Assembly (NCBI GenBank): GCA_003695505.1
Contig: RFIY01000218.1
Location: forward strand, 1 to 6,073
Source of the DNA: J088 sp003695505 [NCBI: Candidatus Dadabacteria bacterium]
GTDB lineage: Bacteria > J088
DNA length: 6,073 bases
Direction of reading: 5' to 3'
Shown: positions 1 to 6,073 of the stretch, piece after piece
Position numbering within the stretch: position 1 is the stretch's first letter
How the letters are laid out: every line of letters begins with the position of its first letter
The notes under the pieces: model-generated
Database searches by the model: none
What the model saw: only the letters and a program-made list of their open reading frames with translations
Told to the model about the DNA's origin: nothing
Program-made: the position numbers and the translations under genes

Positions 1-205
1 AGCCGAGGCGCGCCAGATCGTCTGACGGAGCTGTCGTGATCACATCGATGTCGGCTGTATGGCAACCGCGCAGCCAGGCATCGACGGCGCCGCCGACGAT
101 CCAGACAGCGTGACGGGCGGCAATCTTGTCCAGAATTGCGGCCAGGCGCGCGTCTGTCCCCACCCGCCCTGCGAGGCGGGCGGTCGACTCAGGAACGGGC
201 TTCAA
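1..205 (-). CDS. tRNA nucleotidyltransferase / poly(A) polymerase family protein, N-terminal part (cut by window edge)
   Basis: This is the beginning of a class II nucleotidyltransferase of the CCA-adding enzyme/poly(A) polymerase family, which adds nucleotides to RNA 3' ends in the cytoplasm. About 68 codons are visible. Numbered from the TTG at 205-203, the nucleotide-binding motif WIVGGAV lies at residues 35-41 and the metal-binding DID at 52-54, followed by VITTAPSDDL, the expected order and spacing. The usual GGxVRD motif reads GGAVDA here, so the Arg-Asp pair is replaced. An in-frame TGA upstream leaves only two start codons: TTG at 205-203, overlapping the J-protein gene by 17 nt, or GTG at 163-161. 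Neither has a well-spaced Shine-Dalgarno site, and translational coupling to the J-protein is likely. The family is inferred from the motifs alone. CCA-adding and poly(A)-adding activities cannot be told apart from this fragment. Confidence 0.7.
   Translation of the reverse strand, partial: MKPVPESTARLAGRVGTDARLAAILDKIAARHAVWIVGGAVDAWLRGCHTADIDVITTAPSDDLARLG
163..180 (-). repeat. GC-rich inverted repeat at the J-protein/nucleotidyltransferase junction
   Basis: Six perfect G/C pairs (163-168 with 175-180) enclose a 6-nt loop, beginning 8 nt after the J-protein stop codon. No U-run follows, so it is not a standard intrinsic terminator. The last base of its 3' arm is the first base of the candidate GTG start of the next gene. 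It could therefore control translation of that gene, or be plain coding sequence if the TTG at 205 is the true start. Confidence 0.35.
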
Positions 206-710
206 TGTCCTGTTGTAAAGCCTGAAAGTGTTCGTTCCCGGGTTCCATGGTCAGCGCCAGCTTGATGTTGTTGCGCGCACTGGTCATATCACGGGCAACG
301 AATGCCTGCTTTGCGAGTTTGTAGTACTTCGCACCGGGACCACTTCCGCCGTCATATTCTTTTTTTTGCGCCTTTTCCTGAGCGTCTTGCGGGCGCATGC
401 GCAGGTTTGCCGCACGATCCTCTGCGAGGGCCTGGTCATAGAATTTTCGCAGTGCGGGATCCTTGAGCATGTTGTATGCTTCCGAGATCTGCTTGAAGAC
501 GCGGGTCACCAGTTCGCGAAACGCCGCATCGGTCACATAGTTGTAGCGATCCGGGTGATACTTTCGCGAGCGTGCATAGAACGCCTTTCGGATGTCCGCT
601 TCGTCGGCGTCGGCGTTGACGCCGAGGATCTGGTAGTAATCCAGCCGCTCCATCTTTGACAGGAGCTGCTGGAGCTGCTGGACCGGGTTTTGTCGTGTCT
701 GTGAGGTCAT
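189..710 (-). CDS. J-domain protein with C-terminal TPR (non-canonical DnaJ, co-chaperone of the adjacent Hsp70)
   Basis: This 173-residue cytoplasmic co-chaperone should stimulate ATP hydrolysis by an Hsp70. The J domain spans about residues 24-92, with DYYQILGV opening helix I, the basic helix II ADIRKAFYARSRK, the catalytic HPD at 52-54, and FYDQ near the end of helix IV. The Gly/Phe region, zinc finger and C-terminal substrate domains of DnaJ are absent. After a charged linker (about 98-122), residues 126-159 fit one TPR: Y129, L132, A133, A145, I149, A152 and P157 occupy consensus positions. The ATG at 710 follows AGAAGGA with 9-nt spacing. A longer frame reaching position 1016 would overlap the Hsp70 gene and adds nothing recognisable, so it is rejected. 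The gene lies 31 nt after the Hsp70 stop, in the same operon. A run of eight A in the message at codons 115-117 is a possible slippage site. Confidence 0.93.
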   Translation of the reverse strand: MTSQTRQNPVQQLQQLLSKMERLDYYQILGVNADADEADIRKAFYARSRKYHPDRYNYVTDAAFRELVTRVFKQISEAYNMLKDPALRKFYDQALAEDRAANLRMRPQDAQEKAQKKEYDGGSGPGAKYYKLAKQAFVARDMTSARNNIKLALTMEPGNEHFQALQQDIEARS

Positions 711-719
711 GATTGTTGA

Positions 720-726
720 TCCTTCT
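720..726 (-). promoter_or_regulatory. Ribosome binding site of the J-domain protein gene
   Basis: AGAAGGA on the minus strand stands 9 nt before the ATG at 710, within the 31-nt gap after the Hsp70 gene. It fixes the start of the 173-residue product and argues against the longer upstream frame. Confidence 0.7.
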
Positions 727-741
727 CGGTCGAAATGTCGA

Positions 742-2301
742 TCAGCCGGCGGGGGCTTCCAGGTCGATATTCGCGCCCGATGTCGCTGCGGCAGCGACCT
801 CATCCGACGACATGCCGCCGCTGACGGAGAGCTGAACATTCGCGCTCTGCCCGGTGGCCTGATCCTTGGCACTGACATGGACGATCCCATTGCTGTCAAT
901 TTCGAACAGCACTTCGATCTTGGGAACGCCGCGCGGTTGCGGTGGAATGTTTTCCAGCACGAATTCCCCGAGGATCTCGTTCTCCGAAGATTTGCGTGAT
1001 TCACCCTGGACGACACGAATCCGTACTTCGGTCTGGTTGTCCTTGCTCGTCGTAAAGACCCGTGATTCGTCGCACGGCAACTGACTGTTGCGAGGAATCA
1101 GCACCTCGGTGACATCGCCTGCCATGCCGATTCCCAGGCTCTGAGAGGTGACATCGAGCAGCAGGCTGCCTGCGGCACGGCTGGTCAGCGAGTGCGCCTG
1201 GATCGCCGCGCCAGAGGCGACGACGATGACCGGGTTGATGCTGGCATCGGGGGCGCGATAAAAGTACTTCTCGACCATCTCGCGAATAACCGGCATGCGC
1301 GTCGAACCGCCGACAAGAATGACGCCATCCAGATCGTTGACGTTGAGCCGTGCCGCCTGCAGGGCTTCATCGACAACGGCGAACGTGCGCTGAACGAGAT
1401 CCTGAGTCAGTTGCTGGACCAGCCCGCGGGTCATTTCCACGTTCAGTTCGAATCCATCGAATACCGGTGCGCGGACGGCAACCTTTTCCTGGCTGGACAG
1501 ACGTTTCTTGGATTCTTCGGCGACGACCTTGAGCCGCTGCAGTGCCTTGAGATCCCGCCGCGGATCCTCGCCGGACGCCTCGACGGTACGCTCCGCCAGC
1601 CAGTCGATCAGGCGATCATCGAAGTCGTCTCCACCCAGATAGGTGTCTCCTGCGGTCGCGATCACCTCGTAGACGTCGCCACCAATTTCAAGAATAGAAA
1701 TATCGAACGTGCCACCGCCAAGATCATAGACGGCGACGCGCTGGTCGCGGTTCTGTCCGTAACCGTAGGCCAGCGCGGCGGCTGTCGGTTCATTGAGGAT
1801 GCGCAACACATTCAGCCCGGCGATCGTCCCGGCGTCCTTGGTGGCCTGGCGCTGGCCGTCGTTGAAATAGGCCGGTACCGTAATCACCGCGTCGGTGACT
1901 TCCTCGCCAAGCTGACGTTCCGCGATACGTTTCAGCTCGCGCAGCACCAGCGCGCTGATTTCCGGGATCGCGTAATCCGTGCCGCGAATGCGGATGCGCA
2001 CGGTATCGTTCTCGCCGTCGACAATCTCGTAAGGCATCAATGCGCGTGCCTTCTTGACCTCGGAACTGAAGCTCTTTCGCCCGATCAGTCGCTTGGCGCT
2101 GTAGACGGTATCCGGGCCAAATTCGATCGCACGCTTTTTTGCGGGCGTGCCGACGACGACACGCTGTTCGTCAAGAAAGCTGACGACGGATGGGATGACC
2201 TGTTCCCCGGCTTCGTTTTCAAACACGACCGGAGAGTCACCGTCAAAAAAAGCAACACAACTTGTCGAGGTTCCCAGGTCGATTCCGATCGCTTTACCCA
2301 C
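742..2301 (-). CDS. DnaK-like Hsp70 chaperone lacking the C-terminal lid
   Basis: This 519-residue Hsp70 is about 120 residues shorter than typical DnaK (E. coli, 638). The ATPase domain (1 to about 375) has the phosphate loop [11 protein letters not shown] at 7-17, K70 in AKRLIGR, P143 in TVPAYFND, E171 in [20 protein letters not shown] at 192-200 and [10 protein letters not shown] at 328-337. The Gram-negative insertion after residue 80 is present. The linker LLLD lies at 380-383, and the beta-sandwich substrate domain (about 384-495) includes DNQTEV, VQGE and [10 protein letters not shown]. Only about 24 residues follow, so the helical lid and an EEVD-like tail are missing. NPDEAVA is replaced by NPVIVVA (356-362), and the arch residues equivalent to E. 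coli M404 and A429 are T398 and S419. The start is GTG: an in-frame TGA lies just upstream with no other start between, and AGG stands 10 nt before it. The linked J-protein is the likely partner. It is probably a specialised paralogue rather than the housekeeping DnaK. Confidence 0.95.
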
Positions 2302-2618: not shown

Positions 2619-5600
2619 ATGTTGTTGACGCGCAGATTTGTAGCAATGGTCGCCTTTGCGATTGCGGGAGTCGTGACTTTCGCATCCAGCGCGATCGCCG
2701 AGCCGATGGAGATCAATCCGTTCGGCTATGTCCACGTTGACTCCTCGGGGTCGTACAACGCCGTCGGTGAGCTTGGCTCGACGGCTGGTGACCGGATCTA
2801 TATGAACCGGAACCAGTTGCTTGTGCGCCTGACCGGTTGCGAGTACCGTGCCCGGGTCACCAATGACAACGCCTGGAACGACGGTTTCTGTGACAACGGG
2901 GCCGGCAACCCGCGGCACTGGACCGGGTCGGCGATGTCGTTCATTGAGAGCCTCGTCAACGACAAGCTGCTCGGCGCGACGACCAATCCGATTGACCTCG
3001 CGTCCCAGCTTGGCGTCACAATTCCGCCGCAATACTGGAACGACTACGACGACCGATTTGGACGCGGTGGTGCCGATGACGGCATCAATACGTCCGAGCC
3101 GGTGTTCCGCAACTACCTGGATCTGCTCTTCAAGCGACTGCTTGACGGCGACCGCACGACACCTCTGGATTACGACATTCACACCTTCCGCTATGTCGAT
3201 TCCTACAATCCGGCGTTTACCGCGCCGTCCTATGTCGGTGCCGGGATCTCCGTCAATCCAACGACCTTCGATACAAACGGCGACGGCGTCGAGGGCGGCT
3301 GGGAGCCGTTCCACCTGCTTGCGCCAACCTGTATCCCTGACCTCGTGTTCCTTGGGCCGGATATCTGCCTCAACCTGAACATCGTCAATACGAGTGATAC
3401 ATTCGTGTACTATGTCACGGGCCCCTGGGGTGGTTCCGCAACGGAGCCGTCGTCTTACTTTGGTGCTGGTGCGACGGAAGTCAATAACGTCGGCGCGCCG
3501 ATGATCGATTTTACGCCTTACAGCCCGGCGAACCAAGCCGGAACAAGCCACCTGTTCCTGGCGTCGAAGCCGGAATTCGACTTTACATTCGATGCCGAAC
3601 TGCAGGGTTGCACGCGTTCGCTGAAGGGTTCGAACACGAACTGTAACAGCAGTCCGTATCGCGACGATGACGACGGTCTGTACGCCGAAATCAAGCTCGT
3701 GAACTTCCAGGTCGACCTGCTCTTTGAGCCGCCGTTTACCGACGCGGCTTACGGCACCAGCCAGGAGGTCGAGGGCGCGACCCCGCAGGATTATCGTTTC
3801 AGCTATTCCCGCAATATCAGCGATATTCCCGAAACGGGAAGCGCCGGGTTTACGACCTGGACGTGTGCGGATGGCACGACGCTGACCGGCGTGACGAATG
3901 AAAGTTCGCCGCTCTACGACGCCAAGTGCGACCTCAGCCGCTGGCTGAAGTTCTACGGCACGGCAACCGTGCCCGAGCTGACCCTCGGTATCTCGTTGCG
4001 AATTGTCTCCGGCTACAACTCCGGACCGTCGATCTCGATCCCGGATCACATGGTCAACGTTACCGCACCGACCATTTCCCTTGGGTTCGACATCAAGGTC
4101 ATCGAGTTTTCCGGACAGTTCAGTTACATCCTGGTCGGCGGGCAGTTCTGTAATGATGATTACACCGGCTCGGGCGCGGAAGCGCGGCAGGGCCAGGACT
4201 ACATGGGCGTCTTCTACGATCAGACGGACAGCCCGTACAACTGCGCCACGGTCACGGGTAGCGGGCCGAGCAAGTTCGACGATGTGACCTACAAGAAGAG
4301 TACGCAATTCGTCAGCACCATCTCGTTCCTGCGCGCCGAATTCCTTGGCCAGTTCGAAGACTTCTTTGACCCCAACACCAACCCGGGTTTCTTCCTTGGG
4401 CCGACGATCGTCCCAGGACTGGATGATCTGAACGATACCGTTGCCGAAGCGACCGGCTTCGACTGGCCGCTTGCGGGGAGCTCCGTCGCGGATTCCACCG
4501 AGGCCGTCTGGCTCGCCCTGGGGCTTGGTAGCGACGTGGAGCTCGCCGCAGATATGCACGCGCCGCTCGGTACGACCGAGTACGCCACCAAGGGGGCCGG
4601 GACCGCATCGCTGGTGTCGGGTCAGGGCGACGCCGTCGCCGAGTTCTGGGCCGACCCGTGGGGCGTACTGATGCCATTCTCGGGTGGTATCGGCATTTAC
4701 TGGACGCACGGCACGAATACGACTGGACCAAATGCGGAAGTCGCGAGCTGTGTCACGGCCGATCCTGCCTACACCGGCTATGTAGACGGTGTGCAGTCCC
4801 TTCCCGGCGACGCAGCCAGCCAGGGCGACGACCCCTATGTCAGTCGGCCGTTGCCGAGCCTGAACCTGAGCTGGTCCGGATCCGGTGACACGCACGGTGC
4901 GTGGCAGTCGGCGACAGATCAAACCGTCTGGGATGGCCCCGAGTATGACTCGGCGCTCCTGCATCTGCGAATCCCCGATGTGAACGGCCTGCATCCGTTC
5001 GTTGGGCCGTGGGAGCTGCGTAATGCGGCGCGCGTCGGTGGCGGGGGTGATCGCCTTGTGCCCGTGTCGGATCCGACCAACGCGACAACCGACGAGACCT
5101 ATGCGATCGGTCTGGCGATCCACCAGAATCTGCTGTCGAAATTGCTCTACGAGTTCGTCGTAGATGGCCTGCTCTGCATCGACATCGATCCAGATGCGAC
5201 CTACCAGGACGCGCTCGACAGCCTGCTTGGCGGGATCCTGACCACGGACACGATGGGCCTCTTCGTCCCGAATTTGACGAAGCAGTACAGCGGCGAAAAC
5301 ATGGCGCTGCGCATCGTGCCGCTTCTGAAGGATCCGAGCAGCCTGTACCTGGCGATTGGGCAGACCTATCAGTCCGCCATCAGTCAGTACACCCGCTCGT
5401 TCTCGGGCGGTAGCCCAAGTGCGGCCACCGCAGCCAATCCGATTCCGCGGATCATCGTTGGTGGTGAGAACCAGTATGATTCGTTGAAGAAGCGTTTCCG
5501 CGGGCAAATCGCGACGCGATCCCTGATCGCCAACACCTGCGGTGCGTCAGGCTCCGACCCATTGACTGATCCGTCCTGTGGCCTTTGGCCGGATCTGTCG

Positions 5601-6073
5601 GTCATCATCCCTCACCTGGAGATGGAGTTTTATGTCAACGACTCGAACGGCGGCACGGTCAGCCCGCCGGTGCGACGCCGTGCCTTCGCGCTGGATGTCG
5701 GCATCAACGTCGGTTTGAACATCGACGTGATCAAGAATCCGGTTCAGACGAGCGGTGTCAGCGCAATCTACAATCCGAACCTGCTGTTCGGTGATGCGAT
5801 CACGAACTCTCGCCCGATTTACGGCGGTACCGATTTCCCGATCGGTTGTGACGACACTGTCCCGGGGCAATCGTGTCTGATTCGCGATGTGCCGTCTCGC
5901 CTAGTGATTTTCCTGGGCGGGCTCCTCGATCCAGAGTTGAACGCAGTGCTTGTCTACGACGAAATGCCGTCGGTCCTGACGGACATCGCCGGGACGACGC
6001 TGTATGACTCCGCGACCGGTGGTTGTGTGGACCCGACGGGCGTTGCGAACACAACCTGTCCGTCAGCCACGGG
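2619..6073 (+). CDS. Large secreted cysteine-rich beta protein, function unknown (3' end beyond window)
   Basis: One uninterrupted frame gives 1151 codons before the window ends, and no stop is reached. I do not recognise the family. The N-terminus is a Sec-type signal peptide: charged TRR (residues 4-6), a hydrophobic core to about 22, and cleavage expected after AIA at 27. There is no lipobox cysteine and no second membrane segment, so export to the periplasm, surface or medium is inferred. The mature part has 18 cysteines, mostly in close pairs (74/91, 238/250, 331/342, 416/437, 511/542, 974/987, 1077/1086, 1136/1147), suggesting disulfides. It is rich in Asp, Gly, Thr and aromatic residues, with alternating beta-type stretches (for example 451-507 and 991-1037). 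Residues 218-229 resemble a calcium-binding loop (D218, N220, D222, E229). Residues about 826-1040 recall BPI-like lipid-binding domains, a hypothesis only. The start is fixed by AGGAGG and an upstream in-frame stop. Confidence 0.93.
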   Translation, partial: MLLTRRFVAMVAFAIAGVVTFASSAIAEPMEINPFGYVHVDSSGSYNAVGELGSTAGDRIYMNRNQLLVRLTGCEYRARVTNDNAWNDGFCDNGAGNPRHWTGSAMSFIESLVNDKLLGATTNPIDLASQLGVTIPPQYWNDYDDRFGRGGADDGINTSEPVFRNYLDLLFKRLLDGDRTTPLDYDIHTFRYVDSYNPAFTAPSYVGAGISVNPTTFDTNGDGVEGGWEPFHLLAPTCIPDLVFLGPDICLNLNIVNTSDTFVYYVTGPWGGSATEPSSYFGAGATEVNNVGAPMIDFTPYSPANQAGTSHLFLASKPEFDFTFDAELQGCTRSLKGSNTNCNSSPYRDDDDGLYAEIKLVNFQVDLLFEPPFTDAAYGTSQEVEGATPQDYRFSYSRNISDIPETGSAGFTTWTCADGTTLTGVTNESSPLYDAKCDLSRWLKFYGTATVPELTLGISLRIVSGYNSGPSISIPDHMVNVTAPTISLGFDIKVIEFSGQFSYILVGGQFCNDDYTGSGAEARQGQDYMGVFYDQTDSPYNCATVTGSGPSKFDDVTYKKSTQFVSTISFLRAEFLGQFEDFFDPNTNPGFFLGPTIVPGLDDLNDTVAEATGFDWPLAGSSVADSTEAVWLALGLGSDVELAADMHAPLGTTEYATKGAGTASLVSGQGDAVAEFWADPWGVLMPFSGGIGIYWTHGTNTTGPNAEVASCVTADPAYTGYVDGVQSLPGDAASQGDDPYVSRPLPSLNLSWSGSGDTHGAWQSATDQTVWDGPEYDSALLHLRIPDVNGLHPFVGPWELRNAARVGGGGDRLVPVSDPTNATTDETYAIGLAIHQNLLSKLLYEFVVDGLLCIDIDPDATYQDALDSLLGGILTTDTMGLFVPNLTKQYSGENMALRIVPLLKDPSSLYLAIGQTYQSAISQYTRSFSGGSPSAATAANPIPRIIVGGENQYDSLKKRFRGQIATRSLIANTCGASGSDPLTDPSCGLWPDLSVIIPHLEMEFYVNDSNGGTVSPPVRRRAFALDVGINVGLNIDVIKNPVQTSGVSAIYNPNLLFGDAITNSRPIYGGTDFPIGCDDTVPGQSCLIRDVPSRLVIFLGGLLDPELNAVLVYDEMPSVLTDIAGTTLYDSATGGCVDPTGVANTTCPSAT
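5094..5738 (+). other. Possible TULIP (BPI-like) lipid-binding segment within the large secreted protein
   Basis: Residues about 826-1040 show, in order, AIGLAIHQNLLSKLLYEFVV then GLLCIDI, a region with a Leu/Pro motif (LFVPNL), LRIVPLLKDP, and paired amphipathic strands (LEMEFYV; FALDVGINVGLNIDV). BPI/LBP-type C-terminal domains have a similar order: a helix with a buried hydrophobic face (a 'xQxxLNxxLY' pattern), a strand, an 'xRxxPxxPP' segment and long alternating strands. The resemblance was judged by eye and is not proof. If right, the protein would bind or carry lipid outside the cytoplasm. Confidence 0.3.

Follow-up and report, generated by a model that had tools for sequence, protein, structure and literature searches.

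A lidless Hsp70 conserved beside its own J-protein gene in bacteria

An Hsp70 gene that stops shortly after the beta-sandwich domain, with a J-protein gene directly behind it, could be a damaged copy of an ordinary chaperone or one half of a specialised pair. We addressed this question at a window of 6,073 nt (the whole stretch of DNA analysed), which is an entire contig (C283) from a draft genome of 2.83 Mb and 84.5% completeness. An earlier note on this DNA had proposed a specialised chaperone pair, distinct from general DnaK, with fast-exchanging or large, folded clients. The features of the locus are as follows.

742–2301, minus strand: lidless Hsp70 gene, 519 aa, GTG start, stop codon at 744–742 (open frame without internal stop; PF00012; DnaK alignment)
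1183–2301, minus strand: nucleotide-binding domain (NBD), about residues 1–373 (alignment to DnaK NBD chains; catalytic residues)
814–1164, minus strand: linker and SBD-beta, about residues 380–496 (alignment; strands in the AF2 model)
745–813, minus strand: short tail replacing the lid, residues 497–519, with a helix at 499–510 and a two-residue strand at D513–L514 (AF2 model; no match to the lid profile)
711–741, minus strand: 31-nt intergenic gap from the Hsp70 stop to the J-protein start (sequence)
189–710, minus strand: J-TPR protein gene, 173 aa, ATG start (open frame; PF00226)
435–641, minus strand: J-domain with HPD motif, residues 24–92 (PF00226)
192–347, minus strand: single TPR-like helix pair plus cap, residues 122–173 (AF2 model, pLDDT 91.3; structural alignment with TPR proteins)

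The layout described in the earlier note, which names no strand, held: both genes are on the minus strand, the Hsp70 frame runs for 519 residues to a clean stop without an internal one, and the J-protein gene starts 31 nt on. The statement that no frameshift hides a lid also stood, as tblastn searches of the whole window in all frames, with the lids of E. coli DnaK and of the genome's own DnaK as queries, returned best E values of 2.8 and 3.8. A further minus-strand frame (2–205) overlaps the J-gene stop by 17 nt, so the operon may continue; the frame resembles the beginning of a CCA-adding or poly(A) polymerase head, at a score below the PF01743 cut-off (E = 0.037). Divergently, on the plus strand, lies an open frame (2619–6071) that the contig end interrupts; its product of at least 1151 aa seems to begin with a signal peptide and gave no Pfam or NCBIfam match. 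Rfam returned no match in the window at gathering score and PHROGs only general matches, mostly of unknown function; the promoter scan (3 sites vs a shuffle mean of 1.0) and terminator scan (1 vs 2.6) were not used as evidence.

We then compared the 519-residue protein with Hsp70 families, as the earlier note had proposed. PF00012 covered residues 4–504 (profile positions 1–509 of 599; E = 2.5e-174) at 581.3 bits, far above the cut-off of 20.6, and phmmer aligned residues 1–506 with residues 1–516 of E. coli DnaK (E = 4.1e-146). It follows from this alignment that NBD, linker and SBD-beta are all present, with 13 residues beyond the aligned part; the protein ends just past the start of lid helix A. 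The two proteins share these three domains at 48% identity, with identical catalytic and J-docking residues; whereas E. coli DnaK continues into a helical lid (SBD-alpha) and a disordered tail, the lid is absent from the window Hsp70 and its family. The AF2 model (pLDDT 88.8) contained NBD, linker, SBD-beta, the helix at 499–510 and the strand at 513–514, with tail pLDDT of about 85 for residues 501–510 and 67 for 511–519, and its top structural match was ATP-bound DnaK (4b9q; Z 58.9, 2.0 Å over 504 residues). The protein scored below the NCBIfam equivalog cut-offs for DnaK (604.7 vs 822.55 for TIGR02350; 633.8 vs 648 for NF001413) and below that for HscA (523.4 vs 708.55 bits).

The genome also encodes ordinary chaperones. 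PF00012 matched at six places including the window's gene, among them a full-length, lidded DnaK of 605 aa on contig C91; the absence of such a protein, named in the earlier note as a result that would refute a specialised pair, was thus not what we found. The remaining matches comprised the N-terminal part of a DnaK interrupted by the end of its contig (C174), a 578-aa Hsp70 beside an apparent sigma-factor gene by eye (C358), a 1535-aa Hsp70 (C321) and a weak match (C173), and the genome carries one GrpE and five J-domain places including the window's. We observed that the C358 protein (L044:5711-7447, minus strand) has a disordered-looking tail with an amphipathic-looking stretch at its end, and that the C321 protein (L045:2351-6958, plus strand) has proline-rich repeats and a coiled-looking region.

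A tree, also suggested by the earlier note, was computed under LG+G4 from the core common to 75 rows, without an AU test, and contains several long branches. It placed the window Hsp70 with two lidless J-paired Hsp70s (95/93), whereas the DnaKs, the 605-aa protein included, formed a separate set together with that of E. coli (100/100). A set of 36 rows with 99/100 support comprises DnaK, a second J-linked family and others; most lidless J-paired rows fell outside it, and four divergent rows stood apart on long branches. Since the label for lidless J-paired rows ("A-lidless") needs 8 changes on this tree, it does not prove a single clade of them; short-tailed Hsp70s also occur in other branches.

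The J-protein was characterised in the same manner. PF00226 matched it (E = 1.7e-17), as well as 27 of 27 J-protein family members, and was the only DnaJ domain family in the Pfam lists; the J-domain, with its HPD, carries an insertion of 5–6 residues relative to DnaJ. E. coli DnaJ has G/F, zinc and substrate domains, whereas the window's protein consists of a J-domain and one TPR-like hairpin only. Judged from its sequence, it is a class C J-domain protein, having the HPD motif and lacking zinc or beta client domains.

The earlier note's description of this protein as bearing a TPR was sustained in part. The AF2 model contains one TPR-like helix pair with a cap, which a structural aligner superimposed on TPR proteins in many rows (residues 122–173; Z of about 9–10, 0.8–1.7 Å over 49–52 residues), although helical repeats at such Z may share arrangement only. 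The protein has a single repeat, and at the sequence level no Pfam TPR family reached its cut-off in the window's protein (Fis1_TPR_C, 14.5 bits vs 25.3), TPR_2 was matched by 6 of 27 family members (best E 0.0039), and the top TPR match among the members (E 0.00078) reached 19.6 bits against a cut-off of 27.8. Foldseek with the J model gave nothing at E ≤ 0.001, and the 50 matches listed were J-domains, HscB and other J-proteins, so the structural TPR assignment derives from the second aligner only. Given the size that a TPR clamp needs, the single repeat does not amount to one. The J-proteins of Myxococcaceae have a long proline-rich N-terminal extension, with a total length of up to 978 aa. 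We also observed that 47 of 85 distinct J-proteins finish in a hydrophobic-x-[IVLM]-[KR] end (e.g. FKIR; L086, L052, L172); this end occurred in 42 of 703 gene calls (J-proteins included), and is absent from the window's J-protein.

We next investigated whether lidless orthologues recur beside J-TPR genes, as the earlier note had suggested. The J-protein was taken as search probe because Hsp70 is too common. A first search found four full-length relatives among 58 other genomes: in two, a lidless Hsp70 gene immediately precedes the J-gene, one of these Hsp70s lacking its start because the contig ends there, and the contigs of the other two begin just before the J-gene. All genomes drawn as relatives of the window's genome share only the domain rank with it. 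Named genomes yielded 102 relatives in a further scan; the best 80 of these, by record title mostly from Myxococcota and 'Deltaproteobacteria', were kept. At E up to 1e-15, matches were present in 93 of 117 Myxococcota genomes and in 19 of 386 genomes of a wide draw, the window's genome included.

Among the best 80, 27 were not counted (a J match short of the TPR part, late-starting or low-scoring; most with the J-gene before the Hsp70). The 53 counted loci comprised 33 with an Hsp70 upstream, two of these incomplete at a contig end, 3 with an Hsp70 downstream (L087, L088, L092) and 17 with no Hsp70 in view, each with less than 3.5 kb of upstream sequence. Where a complete Hsp70 lay upstream of a full-length J-protein relative, it was lidless in 31 of 31 loci. 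From the phylum and wide draws, 53 loci were fetched (from 37 of the 93 phylum-positive and 14 of the 19 wide-draw-positive genomes), and three were left out: L214, a canonical DnaK/DnaJ locus, and L215 and L223, in which the J-gene precedes the Hsp70 (in L223 with a tail of 101 residues). Of the 50 kept, one Hsp70 was cut (L175), and the complete ones were lidless in 48 of 49. The exception is the 720-aa J-paired Hsp70 of L213 (L213:2165-4327, plus strand), in which about 200 proline-rich residues are inserted between NBD and linker; by eye it is lidless too, with a tail of 13 residues. The 80 loci (31 + 49) correspond to 74 distinct proteins, or 56 clusters below 90% identity, and no counted locus with at least 3.5 kb upstream lacked an Hsp70 beside the J-gene. 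These results give good support to a conserved, dedicated lidless Hsp70/J pair distinct from general DnaK.

Some neighbours and relatives of these loci deserve separate mention. A CvpA-like gene (PF02674) lies within 2.6 kb after the J-gene in 24 of 29 named-genome loci; we rejected it as a general third gene, as it was found in only 13 of 47 genome-draw loci, and the window's contig ends before such a position. In L049, L052 and L053 the next gene after the J-gene encodes about 630 aa, and in L049 and L053 it precedes the CvpA-like gene; the L053 protein matches the aldehyde ferredoxin oxidoreductase families PF02730 and PF01314. A second family has the J-gene before the Hsp70 (L087, L088, L092, L099, L105, L110, L111, L118, L122, L134, L215), and L101, whose J-gene precedes a lidless Hsp70, was assigned to this J-first group. 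Its lidless members have 523–526 aa with ends in alternating patterns such as YELELKQ, whereas those of Myxococcaceae carry a tail about 100 residues long, to which the lid profile gives hardly any match. The contig BNCN01000003.1, titled Comamonas, holds two Myxococcus-like Hsp70/J loci (L077 and L113), and its title is probably wrong.

Residue conservation was analysed in a group of 77 family Hsp70s, which leaves aside the divergent L198, L203, L216–L218 and L224 and partly aligned rows such as L213, and includes some genomes twice (68 distinct tails). A lid profile built from 10 canonical DnaKs matched 10 of 10 of that source set and none of the 77 family tails, which extend 10–45 residues beyond the position of E. 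coli I512; the earlier note had held that relatives all carrying a lid would point to a local truncation, and the relatives proved to be lidless as well. In E. coli numbering, the ATPase residues T11, K70, E171, D194, T199 and D201 (T11, K70, E171, D193, T198 and D200 in the window's own) and the J-docking residues R167, N170, T173 and D393 were unchanged in 77 of 77. Similarly, the central peptide pocket retained V436 in 77, I438 in 76 and I472 in 74 of the 77. Since these three sets of residues are unchanged, the family Hsp70s are predicted to be active and should be J-driven.

Other positions have changed in a family-specific manner. R445, an arginine in 10 of 10 canonical DnaKs, is serine in 64 of 77; the arch residue M404 is valine or alanine in 75, and A429 is serine in 48. 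At DnaK position 78, phenylalanine occurs in 76 of 77, and Q, F, V and D occupy positions 314, 317, 319 and 321 in all 77. DnaJ K48 touches DnaK D477 (PMC8215388); the D477 position is glutamate in 71 of 77, and the K48 position is lysine in 26 of 27 J-proteins, so that this contact between the partners is retained. The GrpE-signature loop is unlike that of DnaK across the family, and is shortened in the window (10 residues vs 15). The loss of the K55–E267 and R56–E264 bridges described for HscA (PMC8215388) was considered and contradicted, as K55 and E267 are present in 77 of 77; R or K occupies position 56 in 72, and E or D position 264 in 69. On an HscA-like independence of GrpE, the altered loop and the retained K55 and E267 give a mixed picture.

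The tail that stands in place of the lid has a feature of its own: 12 residues past E. coli I512, a hydrophobic residue occurs in 57 of 68 distinct members (leucine in 45) and in 10 of 12 lidless members of the second, J-first family, but in none of the 10 canonical DnaKs. In the window this residue is L514, within the short strand of the AF2 model.

Several known systems come close to the pair. HscA/HscB and HscC/DjlC likewise combine a specialised Hsp70 with its own class C J-protein, and HscA and HscC share an altered GrpE-signature loop (PMC8215388), but both have a lid. The nearest working analogue is the eukaryotic ribosome-associated complex (RAC), in which Ssz1 is a lidless Hsp70 with a complete SBD-beta and its own J-partner, Zuo1 (PMC7083937); however, Ssz1 binds ATP without hydrolysing it and has a detached linker (PMC7083937), whereas the window family keeps the catalytic residues and linker D393. 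The artificial DnaK(1–507) delta-lid has nearly the same domain content as the window Hsp70 (PMC5895705), yet it is engineered and lacks both the conserved tail and an own partner. StkA of Myxococcus xanthus is a short Hsp70 homologue (540 aa) with a specific regulatory role, and is followed by an SCP2-like gene (StkB) rather than a J-gene (PMC4319316). Our search of open-access literature turned up no account of a bacterial family of lidless Hsp70s that has a J-protein as its partner.

One family member has probably been studied already. Of the 15 Hsp70s of M. xanthus (PMC8265645), MXAN_2747 has an SBD-alpha much shorter than that of the others studied, and is among the four closest to DnaK (PMC8265645). 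In strain AM003, the 551-aa protein at L140 was the only lidless J-paired-type Hsp70 identified, and is the fourth of that strain's Hsp70s by PF00012 score. Because this rank agrees with the paper's four closest to DnaK, we assign MXAN_2747 to the family as its probable M. xanthus member, by elimination via Hsp70 ranking rather than by sequence. Its deletion lowers sporulation and peroxide resistance, and the protein rises in development (PMC8265645); in the parts covered here, that paper treats neither a J-gene nor a lidless family.

Several explanations can account for the short Hsp70. The window is the whole of a 6-kb contig from an incomplete draft genome, as might befit an ordinary lidded DnaK that was locally truncated, frameshifted or broken in assembly; this reading was rejected as highly improbable, because relatives at about 50–58% identity end at the same place, and no frame of the window contains lid sequence. 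The Hsp70 could instead stem from a DnaK duplication followed by early loss of the lid, and act as a general, low-grade backup of DnaK under stress without a special client. Deletion of each of four non-canonical M. xanthus hsp70 genes, MXAN_2747 included, gave similar mild defects, and the authors speak of helpers (PMC8265645); such like phenotypes fit a general helper as well as they fit a special module. We regard a general helper as distinctly unlikely, given that a private J-gene adjoins the Hsp70 in all examined loci with enough sequence, that the family-specific residues at 78, 314, 317, 319 and 321 are conserved, and that MXAN_2747 failed to complement E. coli dnaK at 37 °C (PMC8265645).

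A bacterial counterpart of RAC is another reading, which we consider doubtful: the Hsp70 would mainly be the J-protein's partner, with a leucine-proline (LP) peptide from its own tail or from a proline-rich J-protein filling the groove as a pseudo-substrate, and clients would be weakly bound and handed to full-length DnaK. The groove of lidless Ssz1 holds an LP motif of its J-partner Zuo1 (PMC7083937), and in the family LP was present in 31 of 68 distinct tails, compared with 4.3 on average and at most 11 across 500 shuffles; the strand at D513–L514 in the model of the window Hsp70 and the long extensions of Myxococcaceae J-proteins also agree with it. Yet only 10 of 31 tails contained LP after removing relatives above 80% identity, LP also occurs within the final 25 residues of 126 of 703 other proteins and is missing from the window's tail, and its count in the J-protein extensions was little above that in shuffles (82 vs 62 summed). 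Furthermore, Ssz1 is not an active ATPase (PMC7083937), in contrast to what the intact catalytic residues of all 77 family members suggest here.

We favour, at a probability of about 0.6, a conserved two-gene chaperone module in which an ATPase-competent lidless Hsp70 is driven by its own class C J-protein. The gene order, the family-wide absence of the lid and the unchanged ATPase, J-docking and central pocket residues are established at the level of sequence. In this module, the J-protein, positioned by its TPR-like hairpin and, in Myxococcaceae, also by the proline-rich N-terminal extension, would deliver the client and trigger ATP hydrolysis, upon which the beta-sandwich would grip a short hydrophobic segment of the client. 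With no lid to close, binding and release would be fast, and the groove would stay open to bulky, partly folded or aggregate-bound clients; the tail, with its helix A stub and the hydrophobic residue at +12, may steady the sandwich in the lid's place. The module would work beside the general DnaK and not replace it.

Work on lidless DnaK bears on the clients that the earlier note had envisaged. DnaK without its lid has on and off rates 10–100 times faster (PMC7083937), and by analogy we infer fast client exchange in the window family. DnaK delta-lid still works with DnaJ and ClpB in reactivating aggregates, and earlier work found the lid to be needed to refold luciferase (PMC5895705). With a truncated lid, DnaK could no longer hold a folding intermediate against force (a result cited in the review PMC8215388), which argues against the large-client idea. 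A bolder version, which we hold to be rather unlikely, is that an ATP-burning lidless Hsp70/J pair evolved in bacteria apart from eukaryotic RAC. The tail, with its helix A stub and a strand-forming hydrophobic residue or LP motif, would dock groove-side as a built-in pseudo-substrate, and the J hairpin or proline-rich arm would displace it and load a dedicated client; the Hsp70 would cycle fast and serve folded or membrane-bound clients, with cvpA often following in the operon.

Current views give the lid a central part in client trapping by Hsp70. A natural, widespread lidless family with ATPase and J-docking residues and a private J-partner would allow the purpose of the lid to be tested, and also whether J-triggered hydrolysis alone suffices. 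It would, moreover, place the puzzling short-lid Hsp70 of the genetically tractable M. xanthus in a conserved module.
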